From Prolixibacter denitrificans (GTDB lineage: Bacteria; Bacteroidota; Bacteroidia; Bacteroidales; Prolixibacteraceae): a DNA stretch of 64,000 bases. Under the pieces are notes generated by a model. The model did not search any database and was not told where the DNA came from. It saw only the letters and a program-made list of their open reading frames with translations. The stretch is from the NCBI RefSeq assembly GCF_003014495.1, contig NZ_PYGC01000007.1, forward strand, positions 62,001 through 126,000, given 5' to 3'. Every line of letters starts with the position of its first letter. The first letter of the stretch is position 1. Of this stretch, positions 47,993 through 55,972 are shown piece after piece. The position numbers and the translations under genes are program-made.

Positions 47993-48092
47993 GAATCCAC
48001 GACAAGATTGAAGTCAGTTTAAAACCAAATGATCTTTTAAAACCCAAATACAAAAAACCAATCTTAAAACCGAAAACGACTGTCGTGGATTC
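47993..48092. repeat. 12-base inverted repeat with 76-base spacing
   Basis: GAATCCACGACA (47993-48004) and its exact reverse complement TGTCGTGGATTC (48081-48092). The interior contains leader motif copy 1. Confidence 0.55.
48055..48076 (+). repeat. Curli-region leader motif, copy 1
   Basis: AAACCAATCTTAAAACC, followed by GAAAA, and preceded by CCCAAATACAAA. It is not followed by a start codon. A degenerate further copy starts near 48020. Confidence 0.5.
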
Positions 48093-48397: not shown

Positions 48398-48420
48398 AAA
48401 ACCAATTTTAAAACCAGGTT
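48398..48420 (+). repeat. Curli-region leader motif, copy 2
   Basis: AAAACCAATTTTAAAACC, followed by AGGTT and then directly by the ATG at 48421. It is preceded by CCAAATACAAAA, as in copy 1. Confidence 0.5.
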
Positions 48421-48669
48421 ATGACAAAGCATCTAACGGTGCTGGTTCCTAAATTCTTGGTCAACACTTCCTCCTTCCCCCAGGAAATTGCCCAGTATGG
48501 AAACCAGTTGAAAAATGAAGGTTTCGAGGGTCACCCCTCCAGCCATCGTAACGGTGGGAAAAACAATCCGAATACATTAGGGAGAATTGAAGATGCCATT
48601 GCCTACTTTGTTTTTGATGGTCTGTCTCGACTAGTGAACACTACAACTTTTTTACTAAAAAATAAATAA
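48421..48669 (+). CDS. Possible small protein upstream of the curlin gene (82 residues)
   Basis: An 82-residue frame starting MTKHLTVLVPKFLVNTSSFP, then a Asn/Gly/His-rich stretch (HPSSHRNGGKNNPNTLG) and a more hydrophobic end. It has no signal peptide and matches no family known to me. It begins directly after the repeated leader motif, as the curlin gene nearly does. That position and the neighbour-like codon use are the only support. It could equally be a non-coding leader. Confidence 0.35.
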   Translation: MTKHLTVLVPKFLVNTSSFPQEIAQYGNQLKNEGFEGHPSSHRNGGKNNPNTLGRIEDAIAYFVFDGLSRLVNTTTFLLKNK

Positions 48670-48783
48670 GTTAAAAAATTCTTCCGAGCTCTTGCTTTTT
48701 AGAATTGATGTTCATAAATTGTATTACGTTAAAATGGATTAAATCTTAATAAAGATACTTAAAACCCAAAATCTCCTTTTTAT

Positions 48784-48805
48784 AAACCAATCTTAAAATT
48801 GAAAA
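48784..48805 (+). repeat. Curli-region leader motif, copy 3 (curlin gene leader)
   Basis: AAACCAATCTTAAAA, followed by TTGAAAA, ends two bases before the curlin ATG at 48808. It is identical to copy 1 over 15 bases. Confidence 0.55.
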
Positions 48806-48807
48806 TT

Positions 48808-49725
48808 ATGAAAAAAGTAATTTTACTCTTAGTAGCTGTAATGATCAGCAGTGTGCTTTGGGCACAAAACCAGTATGCCGATGCAACTGTAAAACAACTC
48901 GGTGACAACAACAAGGCCTTTGTCGATCAAAGAGGCGCATACGGCGGTGGTTGGTATTACGAGGCCGGTAGTGGTACCGATGCAACAATCAAGGTGCATG
49001 GAGATAAGAACAATACAGCAATCCAACAGTTCGGAGAAAAGAATGTTGCTGGTCAAGACATCCGTGTTGGAGGGTCTGCTTGCGATGGCTTTTATGCATC
49101 ATTGGTAGGGGCCAAATTTTCTGAAAGTGTTTCTATCAAGCTTTGTAAAGTAAAATTGGCTTGCTGCGAAAAAGTAGGCGGAGGTTCCTTTGAAATTGAT
49201 TCAAAATCGCTGTTTCCAGGTATTTATGTAACTGGTGATAAAAACAAAGCATCTATCTATCAGGATGGTACAAAGAATCTCGCTGGCATTAAAATCGTAG
49301 GCGATCACAACAAAGCTGGTGTCAAGCAAGTTGGCGAAGAAAACATGGCTTCTCTGAAGATTAATGGTGACCACAACACTTCGCTTATCGAGCAACAAGG
49401 TGAAAATGGTGGTATGAACTTGGCTATTGTTAAGCTCAATGGCGATCACAACAAATCAACTATCTATCAACGTGGATGGAACAACGAAGTAGCTCAGAAA
49501 GTTAAGGGTGACCGTAATATTGTATCTGCTAGTCAAATTGGATGGTATGACGGAGTTTACGGTGGAGGAAACCTGGCTATTCAGAAAGTTGTTGGTAATG
49601 ACAACGCACTGCTGCTCGACCAACAAGGTCCTGGAAACAAGAGTGTACAGATTACCACAGATAACATGAATAACTCATGGGTAGTTCAGCACGGTTCTAA
49701 CAACCAATCCTTGGTTCGTCAGTAA
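48808..49725 (+). CDS. Curlin-repeat protein, probable major amyloid subunit (CsgA-like)
   Basis: 305 residues from the ATG at 48808, with signal peptide MKKVILLLVAVMISSVLWAQ. The mature part is built of curlin-type repeats with the pattern hydrophobic-x-Q-x-G-x-x-N and GDxN: VKQLGDNNKAFVDQRG (28-43), IKVHGDKNNTAIQQFGEKN (61-79), then seven or more units from 138 to the end (IYQDGTKN, VKQVGEEN, IEQQGEN, IYQRGWNN, ASQIGW, LDQQGPGN, VVQHGSNN). In curli such repeats stack as a beta helix. Residues 86-136 break the pattern with four cysteines (92, 113, 119, 120). Export by the CsgG, CsgE and CsgF proteins encoded nearby is expected. A terminator follows. Confidence 0.85.
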   Translation: MKKVILLLVAVMISSVLWAQNQYADATVKQLGDNNKAFVDQRGAYGGGWYYEAGSGTDATIKVHGDKNNTAIQQFGEKNVAGQDIRVGGSACDGFYASLVGAKFSESVSIKLCKVKLACCEKVGGGSFEIDSKSLFPGIYVTGDKNKASIYQDGTKNLAGIKIVGDHNKAGVKQVGEENMASLKINGDHNTSLIEQQGENGGMNLAIVKLNGDHNKSTIYQRGWNNEVAQKVKGDRNIVSASQIGWYDGVYGGGNLAIQKVVGNDNALLLDQQGPGNKSVQITTDNMNNSWVVQHGSNNQSLVRQ

Positions 49726-49816
49726 TAGTAGATTTAAATTTTTCTCCAAGGTTAGTTTTCGATCCAATTTTCAAAAGAATTCTTAAAAAATAAATCATAA
49801 CTGATTTTGGGTCTTA

Positions 49817-49845
49817 GCTGCCTGCTTCGGCAGGCAGCTTTTTTA
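49817..49845 (+). terminator. Perfect terminator between the curlin gene and the export genes
   Basis: GCTGCCTGC (49817-49825), loop TTCG, GCAGGCAGC (49830-49838), then six T. It ends two bases before the ATG at 49848, so full-length transcripts of the curlin gene alone are expected, with limited read-through. Confidence 0.92.
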
Positions 49846-49847
49846 TA

Positions 49848-50783
49848 ATGAAAATTAAATCAAGATTCATGAAAGTTTCCGTCATCATCACACTATTAAC
49901 TTTAATCAACGTGCATCTTTATGCGAAAACGGCTCAAGATGAAAAGAAGCCTACTATTTTGTTTGCACCTAACTGGAAAGTCAATACAACAGTTGTGTAT
50001 AAAGGAGAAATACAACGTTCAATAAAACGTGATGATTATACATGGACGGGGCAATACACTAGTAATCAAACATTGACAGTAAAAGCTAAGACAGATTCTA
50101 GTTATACCGTTAACTGGGAGGCAGCGGGGTTTCCCATTAATGTTTTTCAAGAATTTCCTGGACCGATGTATGACTGGTTTCAGGAATGGAGCGAAGGCAA
50201 AAAACTAAATTTAAAAATCCGTTTTAGTAATTTGGGGGTTCCGGTAGCAGTAGAAAATATTGATTCGGTACGCTCTTTCTATCAATCAATGGTCGATGAA
50301 TTTATAAAAGAGTTAGCTTCCCGCGATGTTTCGCCGCTAAATAAAGATCGGGTTAAGCAATCCCTACTAAATATGAAAACCTTAGTAATACCGTCAGACG
50401 CTTTTCCCCAAGTTTTTATCAGCAATTTTAATTTACTGTTTCCACTGTACGGAAAAACCTTTTTTGCGAATCAGAACGAAAAAATCACGGATTACCGAAA
50501 GTTACCTACCATGGGGTTTGCAGTTCCCATCCAAATTCACACCCAACTGTCCAAAGAACCCAATAACATTTATCAGTTGACCTCTAATCAAGCGCCACTG
50601 CCTTATGACAAATGGCGAATTAGACCTTCGGGTTATTCTTCAATAGACTTTGACTATACCGATTCATTGGACTTCCAATACGATGCGGTAAAACAATGGA
50701 TAAATTATGCCAAACATTCGATGAATTTTCATCGCAATAACTTTTCAGATAATTTCACTATTTCATACACTAAAGTGAATTAA
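49848..50783 (+). CDS. Unrecognised secreted protein in the curli operon (311 residues)
   Basis: A 311-residue protein with an N-terminal signal (core VSVIITLLTLINVHLYA); a second ATG at 49869 gives a shorter leader and a start further from the terminator. The mature part shows beta-strand-like segments (TTVVYKGEIQRSIKRDDYTW, SYTVNWEAAGFPINVF), a helical middle (DSVRSFYQSMVDEFIKEL), then more strands with many aromatic residues. No cysteine occurs in the mature part and there is no lipobox. It matches none of the Csg proteins. Its place between the curlin and csgF suggests a part in curli export or assembly; this is inference only. Confidence 0.8.
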   Translation: MKIKSRFMKVSVIITLLTLINVHLYAKTAQDEKKPTILFAPNWKVNTTVVYKGEIQRSIKRDDYTWTGQYTSNQTLTVKAKTDSSYTVNWEAAGFPINVFQEFPGPMYDWFQEWSEGKKLNLKIRFSNLGVPVAVENIDSVRSFYQSMVDEFIKELASRDVSPLNKDRVKQSLLNMKTLVIPSDAFPQVFISNFNLLFPLYGKTFFANQNEKITDYRKLPTMGFAVPIQIHTQLSKEPNNIYQLTSNQAPLPYDKWRIRPSGYSSIDFDYTDSLDFQYDAVKQWINYAKHSMNFHRNNFSDNFTISYTKVN

Positions 50784-50812
50784 TTTTAGTTAATTAGTAT
50801 AAAAAGAGCAAT

Positions 50813-51232
50813 ATGAAGAGGTTAATTATAATGTGTTTCTTGGCGTTTCCACTAATGGCTGCTGCACAAGATTTTGTTTATACACCAGTAAATCCGGCTT
50901 TCGGGGGGAATACATACAACTACAGTTGGTTGATGAGCTCAGCTGATGCACAAAAAAAACAACCGTCTTCTTCAACAAGTTCGGCACTGGACTTATTCAA
51001 CCAATCGCAGACAAGTCTGAGTGATTTCACCAACAATTTAAACAGCCAGATTCTTAATCAGCTGTCATCCCGTATCCTGCAAGATCAATTCGGCAATTTC
51101 AGTTTGCAAAACGGTCAATACAACATTGGCAATTATCAAATTGATATCAAGCAAGGGACGCAAGGCATTGATATCAATATTTTAGATACTCAGACCGGGG
51201 GACAATCCAGTGTGACCATTCCCAATCAATAA
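50813..51232 (+). CDS. csgF: Curli assembly factor CsgF
   Basis: A 139-residue protein with signal peptide MKRLIIMCFLAFPLMAAAQ. The mature start carries the CsgF signature: VYTPVNPAFGGNTYNYSWL compares with F-x-NPxFGGN in E. coli, where this peptide plugs into the CsgG pore. Later parts also match: SQILNQLSSRIL, then YQIDIKQG and INILDTQTGGQSSVTIP. In E. coli CsgF sits at the CsgG mouth and couples export to nucleation at the cell surface. It is followed 32 bases later by csgG. Confidence 0.92.
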   Translation: MKRLIIMCFLAFPLMAAAQDFVYTPVNPAFGGNTYNYSWLMSSADAQKKQPSSSTSSALDLFNQSQTSLSDFTNNLNSQILNQLSSRILQDQFGNFSLQNGQYNIGNYQIDIKQGTQGIDINILDTQTGGQSSVTIPNQ

Positions 51233-51264
51233 TTATTTTGACCATATTTAATCGATCTTCCCCC

Positions 51265-52632
51265 ATGAAAAAAATCGAATCTGCCATCATATTGACTCTT
51301 TCGCTGGTTTTGACTTCGTGCAATGCCTACTTTAATCAACCCATGGCACCAACACCTGCCCGTATCGGACAGGAAACTAAAGTTACCTCACAATTTGCTG
51401 AGCTACCTGCCCCTGAAGAACCCATTGTTGCAGCGGTATATAAATTCAGAGATCAGACTGGCCAATACAAGGCTACCGATTACGGTTCCTCCTGGTCTAC
51501 GGCCATTACACAAGGAGCGACCTCCATTCTACTCAAAGCATTGGAAGACTCGAAATGGTTTGTCCCTATCGAGCGGGAAGGCTTGGCCAACCTATTGAAT
51601 GAGCGAAAAATTATCAATTCAAGCCGGATGAACTACTCACAACAATCCGGGCAAGAAGAGCCGTCGTTACCTCCTCTTCTGTTTGCTGGAATCATTCTGG
51701 AAGGGGGCATCATATCTTATGATTACAATATTTTAACGGGCGGGGCTGGAGCCCGATATTTGGGTATTGGAGCTGACACAAAATATAGAGAAGACCGGAT
51801 CTCTATATATTTGAGAGCGATTTCAACTAATAGCGGAAGAATATTAAAGTCAGTAAATGTAACAAAACGCATTATATCTCAAGAAGTCAGCGCTGGCGTT
51901 TTCAAATATGTGGCAACGAACAAATTACTGGAAGCAGAAACAGGCTTCACTTACAATGAACCGACCGATATTGCTGTAAAAGAAGCCATTGAAAAAGCAG
52001 TTTTGGATTTGATCATGGAAGGCGTGTTTGATGGTCTTTGGAAATTGAAGAATCCGGCTGATGTGGAAGCGCCAATTTTTACGCAGTACCTCCATGAAAA
52101 AGATGAAGATCAACAAGAAAATTTCTGGGGTAATAAACTGCAGCAGCGAAGAGATAAGTTCTCGCTTAACTTTGCTGCGAATGCCTATCAGTTGCAGAGT
52201 GACTGGGGGAAAACAAGCCTGACGGGTGGCGGTACTGTCGGTATTTCTTTCTTACCGAAGAAGCGCACTTCATTTCTTAATTTTTCAACGGGAATAGGAA
52301 AATTAAAAAGTGGGAAGGATTTTGAGACCACAGCACTCAATAGCGAGCTTAACTACGGGATTAATTTGTTTCCGAAACGTTCATTTACCCCCTATTTTTC
52401 GGCCGGAGTGGGTGCTACTTACACCAATGATTTTTATCCGTACATAAAGGGTTCGCTTGGGATGGAGTTCTTACTTCATAATAATGCGGGGCTCTTCATG
52501 GAGATGAGTAGTAGTTATTTGCTGAACGACAATCTGGATGGTATCAATCACGGATACTTCAACGATTATTTTCTGGGTGCCAGGGTAGGACTCAACATCT
52601 ATCTCGACTTCAAAAAGCAAAAACAGAAGTAG
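51265..52632 (+). CDS. csgG: Curli export channel CsgG with extra C-terminal beta-barrel-like domain
   Basis: 455 residues from the ATG at 51265; an earlier ATG at 51238 is less likely because the lipoprotein signal starts here. The lipobox ends at Cys19. Residues 50-262 match CsgG closely: VAAVYKFRDQTGQYK, SKWFVPIEREGLANLLNERK, FAGIILEGGIISYD, GGAGARYLGIGADTKY, and SAGVFKYVATNKLLEAETGF with TYNEP. The pore-lining loop has Trp77 where E. coli has Phe56. E. coli CsgG ends soon after this, but here about 190 residues follow. They have short alternating strands (TGGGTVGISFLPKKR, SELNYGINLF, FTPYFSAGVGATY, VGLNIYLDF) like a small OmpA-type barrel. Confidence 0.93.
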   Translation: MKKIESAIILTLSLVLTSCNAYFNQPMAPTPARIGQETKVTSQFAELPAPEEPIVAAVYKFRDQTGQYKATDYGSSWSTAITQGATSILLKALEDSKWFVPIEREGLANLLNERKIINSSRMNYSQQSGQEEPSLPPLLFAGIILEGGIISYDYNILTGGAGARYLGIGADTKYREDRISIYLRAISTNSGRILKSVNVTKRIISQEVSAGVFKYVATNKLLEAETGFTYNEPTDIAVKEAIEKAVLDLIMEGVFDGLWKLKNPADVEAPIFTQYLHEKDEDQQENFWGNKLQQRRDKFSLNFAANAYQLQSDWGKTSLTGGGTVGISFLPKKRTSFLNFSTGIGKLKSGKDFETTALNSELNYGINLFPKRSFTPYFSAGVGATYTNDFYPYIKGSLGMEFLLHNNAGLFMEMSSSYLLNDNLDGINHGYFNDYFLGARVGLNIYLDFKKQKQK

Positions 52633-52677
52633 GGAGTTAATTGACAATATTCCTGACTTTTTGTAACTTATGTAAAA

Positions 52678-53265
52678 ATGAGCGCTATGAAAAAATTTAC
52701 AATCATATTTATCATATTGGGGTTGACGATGGTCTCAATATGTTCGCGGGCCCAGGACAATAACCGGGAGAAGCAAGATGAGAGTATTCATCAGCATCAG
52801 ATGATGCAGCAGATGTTTATCAACGAGCAGAAGGCATTACAAAATATGTCTTTGCAAACTCAGGTTAATCAAAAAGGTAATAACAATAATGCCTTAATCA
52901 ATGATCAATCAGTACAATCGAATCTGAATTATACATCCATCAATCAGGAAGGCAACTACAATAATACTCAAATACAGCTCGATGGAAAAAATTTACGAAC
53001 GAATACAATGCAAAACGGTAACTACAACAACATTGATTTAAACGTTGGAGGTAATGACATTACTTCGTCGATTGTTCAATATGGAGATAACAACAATTAT
53101 ATTAATCATTTTTCCAATTTCTCATCGGGAAATAAAAAGTATAATATTCAACAGCAAGACGGTGCCCAATTATATATTCAGGAAAATTACTTTAACCGGA
53201 TAAACGGCATTTCCGTTAAGATGAAAGGTGATATGAAGCTGCTTCTCAAAAATGGTGGCAACTAA
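52678..53265 (+). CDS. Second curlin-repeat protein, possible nucleator (CsgB-like)
   Basis: A 195-residue protein with a signal peptide (core FTIIFIILGLTMVSICSRA; the start may be the ATG three codons later). A Gln/His/Met-rich segment follows (about 27-60). Then come five or so curlin-type units: VNQKGNNNNALINDQ, INQEGNYNNTQIQ, TMQNGNYNNIDLN, IVQYGDNNNYIN and IQQQDGAQLYIQ. The end is basic (KMKGDMKLLLKNGGN). Compared with the large curlin it is smaller, Asn-rich and lies in the export operon, as suits a nucleator. That role is inference. Confidence 0.75.
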   Translation: MSAMKKFTIIFIILGLTMVSICSRAQDNNREKQDESIHQHQMMQQMFINEQKALQNMSLQTQVNQKGNNNNALINDQSVQSNLNYTSINQEGNYNNTQIQLDGKNLRTNTMQNGNYNNIDLNVGGNDITSSIVQYGDNNNYINHFSNFSSGNKKYNIQQQDGAQLYIQENYFNRINGISVKMKGDMKLLLKNGGN

Positions 53266-53323
53266 AATTTTACCGAATGGTTCGTACTGTATTATTCACT
53301 AATATCTAACCCCCTCAGAGACA

Positions 53324-54832
53324 ATGAAAAAATTCTCCTCATTTAAGCTTCTTTTCGTTATTGCTTTGCTTTTAAGTCTATGGCGATGTAAGGAACAACC
53401 CTACGATGTTGTCCAATATGGATCGCTTGAAGGAGTTATTTTGAGCGAATACGACGATAAACCAATAAATGGAGTAAAGATTACAACTTCACCAACTTCT
53501 GAAACCGTTTATACCGATTCGGTCGGACATTTTAGTATCCCGGAAGTAGAGTCTGGTGACATTACGGTAACAGCTTCCCGTGACGGATATCTGAATTACA
53601 CCGAAAAACTATCAATCACTGAAAGCGAAACCAGCTCGATAAGTATGTACTTGACCAAAGATAGTACTTCAAATCCGGCTGATGACGTAATGACTTTGAC
53701 ATCTCCGTTGGATGGATCCGTTGACCAGCCTGTTAACCTGACTTTTAGCTGGCATTTTAATGCAACTACTTACAAAAACACGCCAATCGATGTTAGTTTG
53801 GTAACAGTAAACACAGCTACGTTGGAAGAAAAAACATGGATTGCCAATACGACTGATACCACCTATACGGTGCAAGGGCTAAAATACAATTCAACTTACC
53901 TTTGGTATCTGAAGGTGGAAGCAGATGGAGCTTTCATTGGGAATACCCAATTCCAGCGGATTCAAACGCAGGCTGTCCCTAAAAACCTTTTGGTATATGC
54001 CAAGGTATTTAATAATAATTACGAGATCTTCTCATACGATAGCACCACCCAGATAAACTATCAGCTGACAGATTATCCATCCAGAGATTGGTATCCAAGA
54101 AAATCGCCAACCGAAAATAAAGTAGCTTTTGTTTCGGATCGGGATAATTCCAATCAGATTTATACGATGGACATGGACGGGCGCAATGTTACCAAAATAT
54201 CACAATTGTCGGTAACCGGATACAACAACAACGGTACCGGTTTTGCCTGGTCACCGGATGGCGGGTACATCATCTACCCCCACAACAATAAGCTCATAAA
54301 AATCAATAAAAATGGTTACGACAGCCAGGTATTGGCTACTGCCCCGGGCGGACGTGATTTTTGGAAATGCGATTGGTCCCGCTACGGCCACAAAATTGTA
54401 GTGCAGACTGTGGGAGAAAATATCTATGATTCGGAAATCTATATCATGGACGACGACGGTAGTAATATGCAGTTACTGGTTGCAAACGAACCTGGAAGAA
54501 CCGATTCTCCAACGTTTTCGTTCGACGGCAATACGGTTTACTACACGCATGATGCTGGAGGGGTAGATGCACCAGATGGATGGCAAAAAGATGCCCGATT
54601 ATACCAGATTAATATAGATGGGACCAGTCTGCAGGAGATTAATATCGGCAAAGCGGCTGGTGAATCTGTCTATAACCCACATATCTTGAATGCCGGAGTT
54701 GGATTGGTATACTCTCTGGGGATTCCGGATGGGCCTAAAACCATTTACCTGTCTTATTTACAGACCAACCCAGATGGAACTATTTCAGGAACGAACCAAT
54801 CGATTATTGCCGGAGAGATGCCGGATTGGTAA
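53324..54832 (+). CDS. Surface lipoprotein: carboxypeptidase-regulatory-like, FnIII-like and TolB-like propeller domains
   Basis: A 502-residue protein with lipoprotein signal ending SLWRC (Cys22). Residues 33-110 resemble a carboxypeptidase regulatory-like domain (GSLEGVILSEYDDKPINGVK, DSVGHFSIPEV). Residues 122-215 resemble an FnIII domain (LTSPLDGSVDQPVNLTFSW, then YLWYLKV). From 222 on there are propeller blades with FVSDRDNSNQIYTMDMDGRN and FAWSPDGGYIIYP. It is the last gene of the curli operon before a terminator. It could anchor or sense fibres at the surface. That idea rests on position alone. Confidence 0.8.
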   Translation: MKKFSSFKLLFVIALLLSLWRCKEQPYDVVQYGSLEGVILSEYDDKPINGVKITTSPTSETVYTDSVGHFSIPEVESGDITVTASRDGYLNYTEKLSITESETSSISMYLTKDSTSNPADDVMTLTSPLDGSVDQPVNLTFSWHFNATTYKNTPIDVSLVTVNTATLEEKTWIANTTDTTYTVQGLKYNSTYLWYLKVEADGAFIGNTQFQRIQTQAVPKNLLVYAKVFNNNYEIFSYDSTTQINYQLTDYPSRDWYPRKSPTENKVAFVSDRDNSNQIYTMDMDGRNVTKISQLSVTGYNNNGTGFAWSPDGGYIIYPHNNKLIKINKNGYDSQVLATAPGGRDFWKCDWSRYGHKIVVQTVGENIYDSEIYIMDDDGSNMQLLVANEPGRTDSPTFSFDGNTVYYTHDAGGVDAPDGWQKDARLYQINIDGTSLQEINIGKAAGESVYNPHILNAGVGLVYSLGIPDGPKTIYLSYLQTNPDGTISGTNQSIIAGEMPDW

Positions 54833-54868
54833 GAAAAAATTAATCAATAATAATAATAACGATTATAT

Positions 54869-54895
54869 AAAAGGGGCTTTATTAGCCCCTTTTTT
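54869..54895 (+). terminator. Terminator ending the curli export operon
   Basis: AAAGGGGCT (about 54870-54878) pairs with AGCCCCTTT, with T following, 37 bases after the lipoprotein stop. Confidence 0.9.
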
Positions 54896-55183
54896 GATAT
54901 GCTTATAGAATATGAAACAGGTAACTTCGTATAATCTGGACTTTAAAGTATTCTGCACGCATCGAATTAGTATATAATATTCAACGAATCTGCAATAAGC
55001 TATTAAGGTGAGCGTTGCAAATACGGATCAGTAAATTCAACTTAGATATAGTAAAGAGGCTTTAAATACTGAAGGAAAAAATTCATTGCCAAAACAACAG
55101 CAATAGCCTTTGGGACGAAACGCAATCCTTCATCGACTGAAGCAGCCGCCTAATTCTATTTTTCTGTAGTTCAAGATGGAGCA
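54896..55183. other. Gap downstream of csgE and the curli operon
   Basis: 288 bases between the operon terminator and the end of the convergent csgE gene. No gene is seen. A weak CTTCA/TGAAG stem occurs near 55130 that might end the csgE transcript. Confidence 0.4.
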
Positions 55184-55972
55184 TCAATATATTCCGTTCC
55201 CCATCATATCCGGATCTTGTAATGTCTGCGAAACATTCTCTCTCTGTTTCAGGTAATCTTGAACCTGTCCAACGGCATAATCAGCATATGCATTTATGAT
55301 CTCCTCTCGTGGCGATAAATACGAAGAAAATACTTCATCGTCATTTACATAAATAGACACCATCACCCGATTCATTCGGGGTGGACTCTCTTTGATAAAA
55401 AGAGTATAATCTTTTGCGTCAACAGGTGCTACCCATTTGGAATAAAAAGCCTCGTAAAAATCGCGTCCGACCTTCGAAAGCGTCTCATCCACAACCAACC
55501 CATCAATCTCAACACTCAATGACTCCTCACTCTCCTTTTGCTTCTGCTCGTTGAGCAATGCTACCAGTTTTTCGAGCATCATTTTTTGGAACGCTTTCTG
55601 GCGAAAGGTCAAATTACCCAACTTATTTAAGGTCGAATCAGGTGCGGCTGGCAATTGCTTTGATGGCACTGAAGGAAGAGGCTTTAAAGCAAGAAGCACT
55701 TTTACCCCATCAACATAAATTGTGTCAGGGTAAGGCCTTTGGTTTAAAATTTCATCAACATGTTTTTTCCATTCAGCACCATAAGTATCCGGAACCTTGT
55801 ATAGTGCGGAACGGGAAGCCCCATCAATAGTGCTATCTTGATCGACAACTTGAGGAGTAGTAATTCCTACCAATGAATTACTTGATAATAGTGTCTGAGA
55901 TTTGGCCTGAATATTTAATATCAGCAAGAAAAATGCTGCGAGGTAAAAATATTTTTTGAGTTCTTTCTTCAT
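55184..55972 (-). CDS. csgE: Curli secretion accessory protein CsgE with long N-terminal extension
   Basis: A 262-residue exported protein (signal with core YFYLAAFFLLILNIQA). The C-terminal 110 residues match CsgE: SVEIDGLVVDETLSKVGRDF, then YEAFYSKW, LFIKESPPRMNRVMVSIYVND, EVFSSYLSPR and a helix with VGQVQDYLKQRE. In E. coli CsgE is 129 residues long and caps the periplasmic side of CsgG. Here residues 27-150 add a strand-rich piece (YPDTIYVDGVKVLLALKPLP) and a helical, Glu/Lys/Gln-rich linker (QKMMLEKLVALLNEQKQKES). It is on the opposite strand, convergent with the csgF-csgG operon, so it needs its own promoter. Confidence 0.88.
   Translation of the reverse strand: MKKELKKYFYLAAFFLLILNIQAKSQTLLSSNSLVGITTPQVVDQDSTIDGASRSALYKVPDTYGAEWKKHVDEILNQRPYPDTIYVDGVKVLLALKPLPSVPSKQLPAAPDSTLNKLGNLTFRQKAFQKMMLEKLVALLNEQKQKESEESLSVEIDGLVVDETLSKVGRDFYEAFYSKWVAPVDAKDYTLFIKESPPRMNRVMVSIYVNDDEVFSSYLSPREEIINAYADYAVGQVQDYLKQRENVSQTLQDPDMMGNGIY

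Follow-up and report, generated by a model that had tools for sequence, protein, structure and literature searches.

The window analyzed here, a 64,000-nucleotide stretch of a Prolixibacter denitrificans genome (contig NZ_PYGC01000007.1), holds a curli-type secretion locus: a curlin-repeat gene (curlin1), a gene for an exported protein that we call p311, csgF, csgG, a second curlin (curlin2), and a lipoprotein gene, all on the forward strand, followed by csgE on the reverse strand. This order, strands included, agrees with a preliminary description of the same DNA, and the same layout is found in four Prolixibacter genomes (the window genome, G001, G002, and G003), a genus that contains iron-corroding strains (PMC8368055). 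The features to which we refer are given below, in window coordinates except for the last.

47993-48092, + strand: hairpin element around the first leader-motif copy, arms GAATCCACGACA / TGTCGTGGATTC (inverted repeat; RNA fold z = -3.9)
48400-48414, + strand: leader motif AACCAATTTTAAAAC, 21 nt ahead of the 82-codon open reading frame (ORF)
48421-48669, + strand: 82-codon ORF, conserved in all four genus genomes, not a curlin
48785-48799, + strand: leader motif AACCAATCTTAAAAT, 23 nt ahead of the curlin1 ATG
48808-49725, + strand: curlin1 (305 aa), likely major subunit (PF07012, 2.9e-20; 7 significant repeats, 7 QxGxxN motifs)
49816-49839, + strand: intrinsic-terminator-like hairpin in the curlin1/p311 gap (10-bp stem and T run)
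49848-50783, + strand: p311, exported 311-aa protein in the usual position of csgE (no Pfam match; found in 4/4 Prolixibacter genomes only)
50813-51232, + strand: csgF (PF10614, 1.5e-41)
51265-52632, + strand: csgG, lipoprotein pore domain and C-terminal extension (PF03783, 7.6e-66)
52678-53265, + strand: curlin2 (195 aa), perhaps a minor subunit or a nucleator (4 QxGxxN motifs, weak CsgA-model match)
53324-54832, + strand: lipoprotein with CarboxypepD_reg domain, FN3-like domain, and TolB-like propeller (PF13620, 6.2e-12; PF07676, 5.7e-8)
55184-55972, - strand: csgE, displaced; carries the long N-terminal extension typical of the phylum (PF10627, 5.3e-24)
L120, 7234-8400 (contig C5 of genome G000): curlin3 (388 aa), unlinked third curlin

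A curli locus in the form of its phylum

The first issue is simply whether these genes are what they seem, and the family assignments made earlier for csgF, csgG, csgE, and the curlin-repeat proteins hold up well: csgF, csgG, csgE, and curlin1 far exceed their Pfam cut-offs, and the components of curli (type VIII) secretion (a CsgG pore lipoprotein, CsgF and CsgE, and curlin-repeat subunits) are all present. Judged by its gene families, this is a genuine curli amyloid-fibre secretion operon of a known kind, in a phylum-specific form, and Prolixibacter would be expected to make fibres with it. No csgC or csgD lies among the ORFs of the locus, which is to say that we do not find the enterobacterial curli regulon here. 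The preliminary description was right about this absence, and we considered it as an oddity and dropped the idea because lacking both genes is already known as the rule in Bacteroidota, in agreement with Dueholm et al. 2012 (PMC3521004).

What had been called a nonstandard layout comes down to the displacement of csgE, downstream and onto the opposite strand, and to p311 in its slot; the layout is otherwise standard. Our wider sample comprised 396 Bacteroidota genomes, 45 of which reach the CsgF family cut-off (41 of them strongly), and 47 csg loci were annotated; csgE stands immediately 5' of csgF in 42 of the 44 loci outside Prolixibacter. One boundary had to be redrawn: the first curlin had been started at 48421, but curlin1 starts at 48808 (an alternative TTG lies at 48799), and the 82-codon ORF is separate. 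The csgG product begins at 51265, at the onset of a signal peptide with a lipobox.

The curlins themselves differ in how readily they are recognized. A Cys-containing insert sits between the repeats of curlin1. Curlin2 falls under the Pfam cut-off, and its match to the CsgA model of NCBIfam is weak (2.9e-5); its four QxGxxN motifs compare with a mean of 0.3 and a maximum of 3 in 2,000 shuffles. Curlin3 carries an insert similar to that of curlin1 and shares the leader motif discussed below; it is also found in G001 and G002 and was undetected in G003.

The CsgG profile matches solved CsgG at 1e-81, and the lipobox cysteine (Cys19) is invariant in the seven CsgG proteins compared. Its C-terminal extension (about 52120-52629) is found in 46 of the 47 loci, the 47th being truncated by a contig end. 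Conservation, together with subthreshold matches to PagL and PorG, suggests a resemblance to an outer-membrane barrel, a fold that the extension may adopt; the predicted model of the protein has a pLDDT of 27.

A putative shared leader

Upstream of curlin1 lies a region that is conserved to a degree one would not guess from the genes that follow it. The 15-mer AACCAATYTTAAAAY occurs in five copies per Prolixibacter genome and not at all in a reversed control: three copies are upstream of curlin1, and one stands 23 nt before the ATG of the unlinked curlin3 in three of the four genomes. Because copies stand 21-23 nt from the ATG at the 82-codon ORF, curlin1, and curlin3, the motif looks like a shared leader that would link the operon, the ORF, and curlin3. 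The fifth copy, behind a terminator and with no evident gene start after it, we set aside as probably due to chance. A scan for sigma-70 promoters found 23, compared with 26 expected.

The block around the copy at 48400-48414 is 100% identical in the four species. The frame of the 82-codon ORF is 70-83% identical in amino acids between the window and its relatives, and its 5' third is almost without synonymous change, which suggests constraint at the nucleotide level there. The hairpin element farther upstream is single-copy and near-invariant (97-100% identity over 136 nt in four genomes); it could be a small RNA or a cis element.

Divergence and probable exchange of alleles

How, then, do the genes behind so conserved a leader compare between species? 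Against G001, the closest relative of the window genome, nucleotide identity is 56-73% for the six operon genes, versus 77-100% (mostly about 93%) for 53 ORFs of the flanks and leader, a contrast with a chance probability of 2e-8; dS is mostly 0.05-0.5 in the flanking and leader ORFs, whereas it is saturated in five operon genes and 1.8 in curlin1. The drop in identity sets in just within the curlin1 signal peptide and ends ahead of csgE, and divergence is normal in the flanks, the leader, and csgE. The diverged stretch is broken up by conserved islands, namely the leader and the terminator-like hairpin, which is near-invariant in the four species between two strongly diverged genes.

Phylogenetic tests were made on the quartet of the window genome, G001, G002, and G003, the only four genomes available for the genus. 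Both flanks support (window,G001)(G002,G003), with AU values of 0.998 and 1. Curlin2 and the C-terminal part of the lipoprotein each reject this arrangement (AU 2e-4 for both) and favour (window,G003), toward which the csgG core (AU 0.04) and the N-terminal part of the lipoprotein (AU 0.05) lean marginally. Curlin1 retains the flank topology; p311, csgF, the putative barrel of csgG, and csgE resolve none. The csgE of G002 stands apart, sharing about 63% identity with each of the others. The conflict of curlin2 and the lipoprotein with the flank tree points to an exchange of alleles, and we regard the whole as good evidence that the operon was swapped between species, the genes on either side staying where they were. 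The simplest account of the quartet results would be two or more exchanges that covered different tracts.

Could the operon instead evolve very fast in place, under diversifying selection or a locally high mutation rate, with no exchange at all? Curlins are highly variable (PMC3521004), synteny is intact, and p311 and csgF are among the genes without a discordant topology. Against this stand the synonymous sites, which even in csgF, csgG, and the lipoprotein gene are at or close to saturation, when neighbours only a few hundred bases away have a dS of about 0.1-0.5; the pairing of the window with G003 by curlin2 and the lipoprotein, contrary to the flanks; and conserved islands inside the very same stretch. 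We consider this explanation unlikely.

Exchange between species remains our preferred reading for Prolixibacter, and its reach can be gauged from pairs of loci elsewhere. Flank proteins of L070/L087, a pair from the Flavobacterium family, share 94% identity and their CsgG proteins 53%; in L065/L090, flank DNA is 83% identical and csgG 67%. Several Bacteroidota pairs, L059/L060 and L063/L065 among them, have little or no excess divergence. That is, excess divergence like that in Prolixibacter is seen in some Flavobacterium-family pairs, and the sequence picture in other genera is mixed. A bolder generalization, which we put forward tentatively and would not yet wager on, is that Bacteroidota curli loci are hypervariable sites of allele exchange, where subunits, pore, and lipoprotein anchor or nucleator would be swapped as modules between a conserved leader and conserved flanks, much as at O-antigen or pilin loci, giving species-specific fibres (e.g., in defence against phages, grazers, or nonkin).

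A lipoprotein that accompanies curli genes

Two extra proteins had been proposed as new components of the system, with conserved linkage to csgG across Bacteroidota as the check. The lipoprotein passes: its linkage is phylum-wide. Members of its family have an invariant lipobox cysteine and a CarboxypepD_reg domain, many have the FN3-like domain, and the C-terminal TolB-like propeller is present or absent by member, the window's protein being one form. At a threshold of E <= 1.6e-33, the family is present in 41 of 41 strongly csgF-positive genomes and in 6 of 355 others among the 396 (Fisher 1e-49); it is found as well in all 20 csgF-positive genomes left out of model building (3e-28). It is present in 43 of the 47 locus stretches examined and nearly always adjoins csgG or the curlins, a position kept through rearrangement. 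Of the four stretches without it, three come from genomes that have a copy elsewhere: in G102, it lies just beyond the stretch; in G179, it is on a different contig; and in the csgF-positive G271, it is about 179 kb off. The fourth such stretch, L016, stops at a contig edge and comes from a genome outside the co-occurrence search.

In 24 of 25 of these lipoproteins, the lipobox cysteine is followed at mature position 3 or 4 by an acidic residue, usually after S, T, K, or E. Surface exposure is likely because this pattern resembles known surface-export signals, those of B. fragilis and F. johnsoniae (PMC5080379). The window's protein has the whole set of family features: lipobox, acidic signal, CarboxypepD_reg and FN3-like domains, and co-occurrence with csgF.

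One might still suspect a linked bystander that takes no part in curli and serves, for instance, in substrate binding or the stress response. CarboxypepD_reg domains are common in Bacteroidota (352 of 396 genomes give weak matches), and in G003, an IS4-type transposase gene splits the lipoprotein gene (L015, 4824-7777), on which account the lipoprotein may be dispensable there. Strong family matches, however, track csgF nearly perfectly over many families, and the place beside csgG or the curlins survives rearrangement, which makes a mere bystander improbable. We, thus, hold the lipoprotein to be the best candidate, and a well-supported one, for a new general curli component, for which linkage and the localization signal suggest a role as anchor or nucleation platform. 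Six csgF-negative genomes (G272, G256, G220, G169, G216, and G450) hold close relatives of about 430-440 aa, possibly serving another system.

A protein of the genus

The other extra protein fared less well: p311 adjoins csgF in all four Prolixibacter genomes (55-60% identity), with no credible relative in 57 other genomes of the family and order, in 294 genomes of the order, or in a scan of GTDB contigs. Because it is found nowhere outside Prolixibacter, it can be at most a genus-specific part. Its N-terminus resembles a signal peptide without a lipobox, no Pfam or NCBIfam family matches it, the best E value against solved structures is 0.27, and Foldseek with a poor AlphaFold model (pLDDT 47) gave no significant match. 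We take p311 to be a genus-specific exported accessory.

CsgH/CsgC-like proteins were observed in other Bacteroidota csg loci (L053, 12366-12779; L058, 12432-12839; L063, 7279-7683; L065, 8754-9158, a call that rests on similarity to L063; and L074, 1680-2054), and the CsgH family gave no above-threshold match in the four Prolixibacter genomes. In the 2012 survey, by contrast, csgC was not found in Bacteroidetes, and csgH was reported from Alphaproteobacteria (PMC3521004). We doubt that p311 stands in for such an amyloid inhibitor or assumes part of the role of CsgE: it does occupy the usual slot of csgE, in a genus where no CsgH-like protein was found, but it has no sequence or profile similarity to CsgE (its candidacy as a CsgE relative was rejected for want of profile similarity) or to CsgC/CsgH-type helpers, its size and predicted secondary structure are unlike the small CsgC/CsgH domain, and csgE itself is retained intact.

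How the parts may work together

We think it likely that all of this adds up to a Bacteroidota-type curli system with a lipoprotein anchor or nucleator, p311 as an accessory, and a cassette exchanged between lineages. By family, CsgG with CsgF would form the outer-membrane pore, CsgE would gate it from the periplasm, and curlin1, curlin2, and the unlinked curlin3 would be exported unfolded to assemble outside. The lipoprotein, probably carried to the outer leaflet, would anchor or nucleate fibres beside the pore, the job that other bacteria give to CsgB and CsgF, and p311 may help in the periplasm. The stretch running from curlin1 through the lipoprotein gene would be exchanged as a cassette by homologous recombination within otherwise stable flanks, and related species would, therefore, carry very different fibre and pore alleles. 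The marks of exchange are there in the alignments and trees; as to its selective cause, the exchange, if true, would mean that diversifying pressure acts on fibre identity.

Comparison with known systems

What is new, we believe, is one well-supported candidate component (the lipoprotein), one genus-specific accessory (p311), and good evidence of operon exchange; the accessible portions of PMC3521004 and PMC12822426 hold no mention that we found of the lipoprotein, the CsgG extension, or allele exchange. With the CsgH/CsgC amyloid inhibitors, the locus may share a functional slot in the operon, although no homolog was found in the four genomes and p311 is dissimilar. The likeness to E. coli curli (type VIII; csgBAC-csgDEFG) lies in the CsgE, CsgF, and CsgG families and the curlin repeats; in contrast, Prolixibacter has no csgC, csgD, or separate csgBAC operon, its CsgE and CsgG are longer, and the lipoprotein and p311 are extra. 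Closest are the Bacteroidetes curli operons (PMC3521004; the CsgA/B+CsgEFG class of PMC12822426), which likewise have csgE-F-G with several curlins and no csgC or csgD, and from which Prolixibacter differs in its displaced csgE and added p311. To the curli field, the comparison offers a concrete candidate component, a probable surface lipoprotein kept phylum-wide. It also suggests that whole fibre-plus-pore alleles are exchanged in Bacteroidota, in contrast to the 2012 survey, which concluded that horizontal transfer has had only a small part in how curli evolved (PMC3521004).
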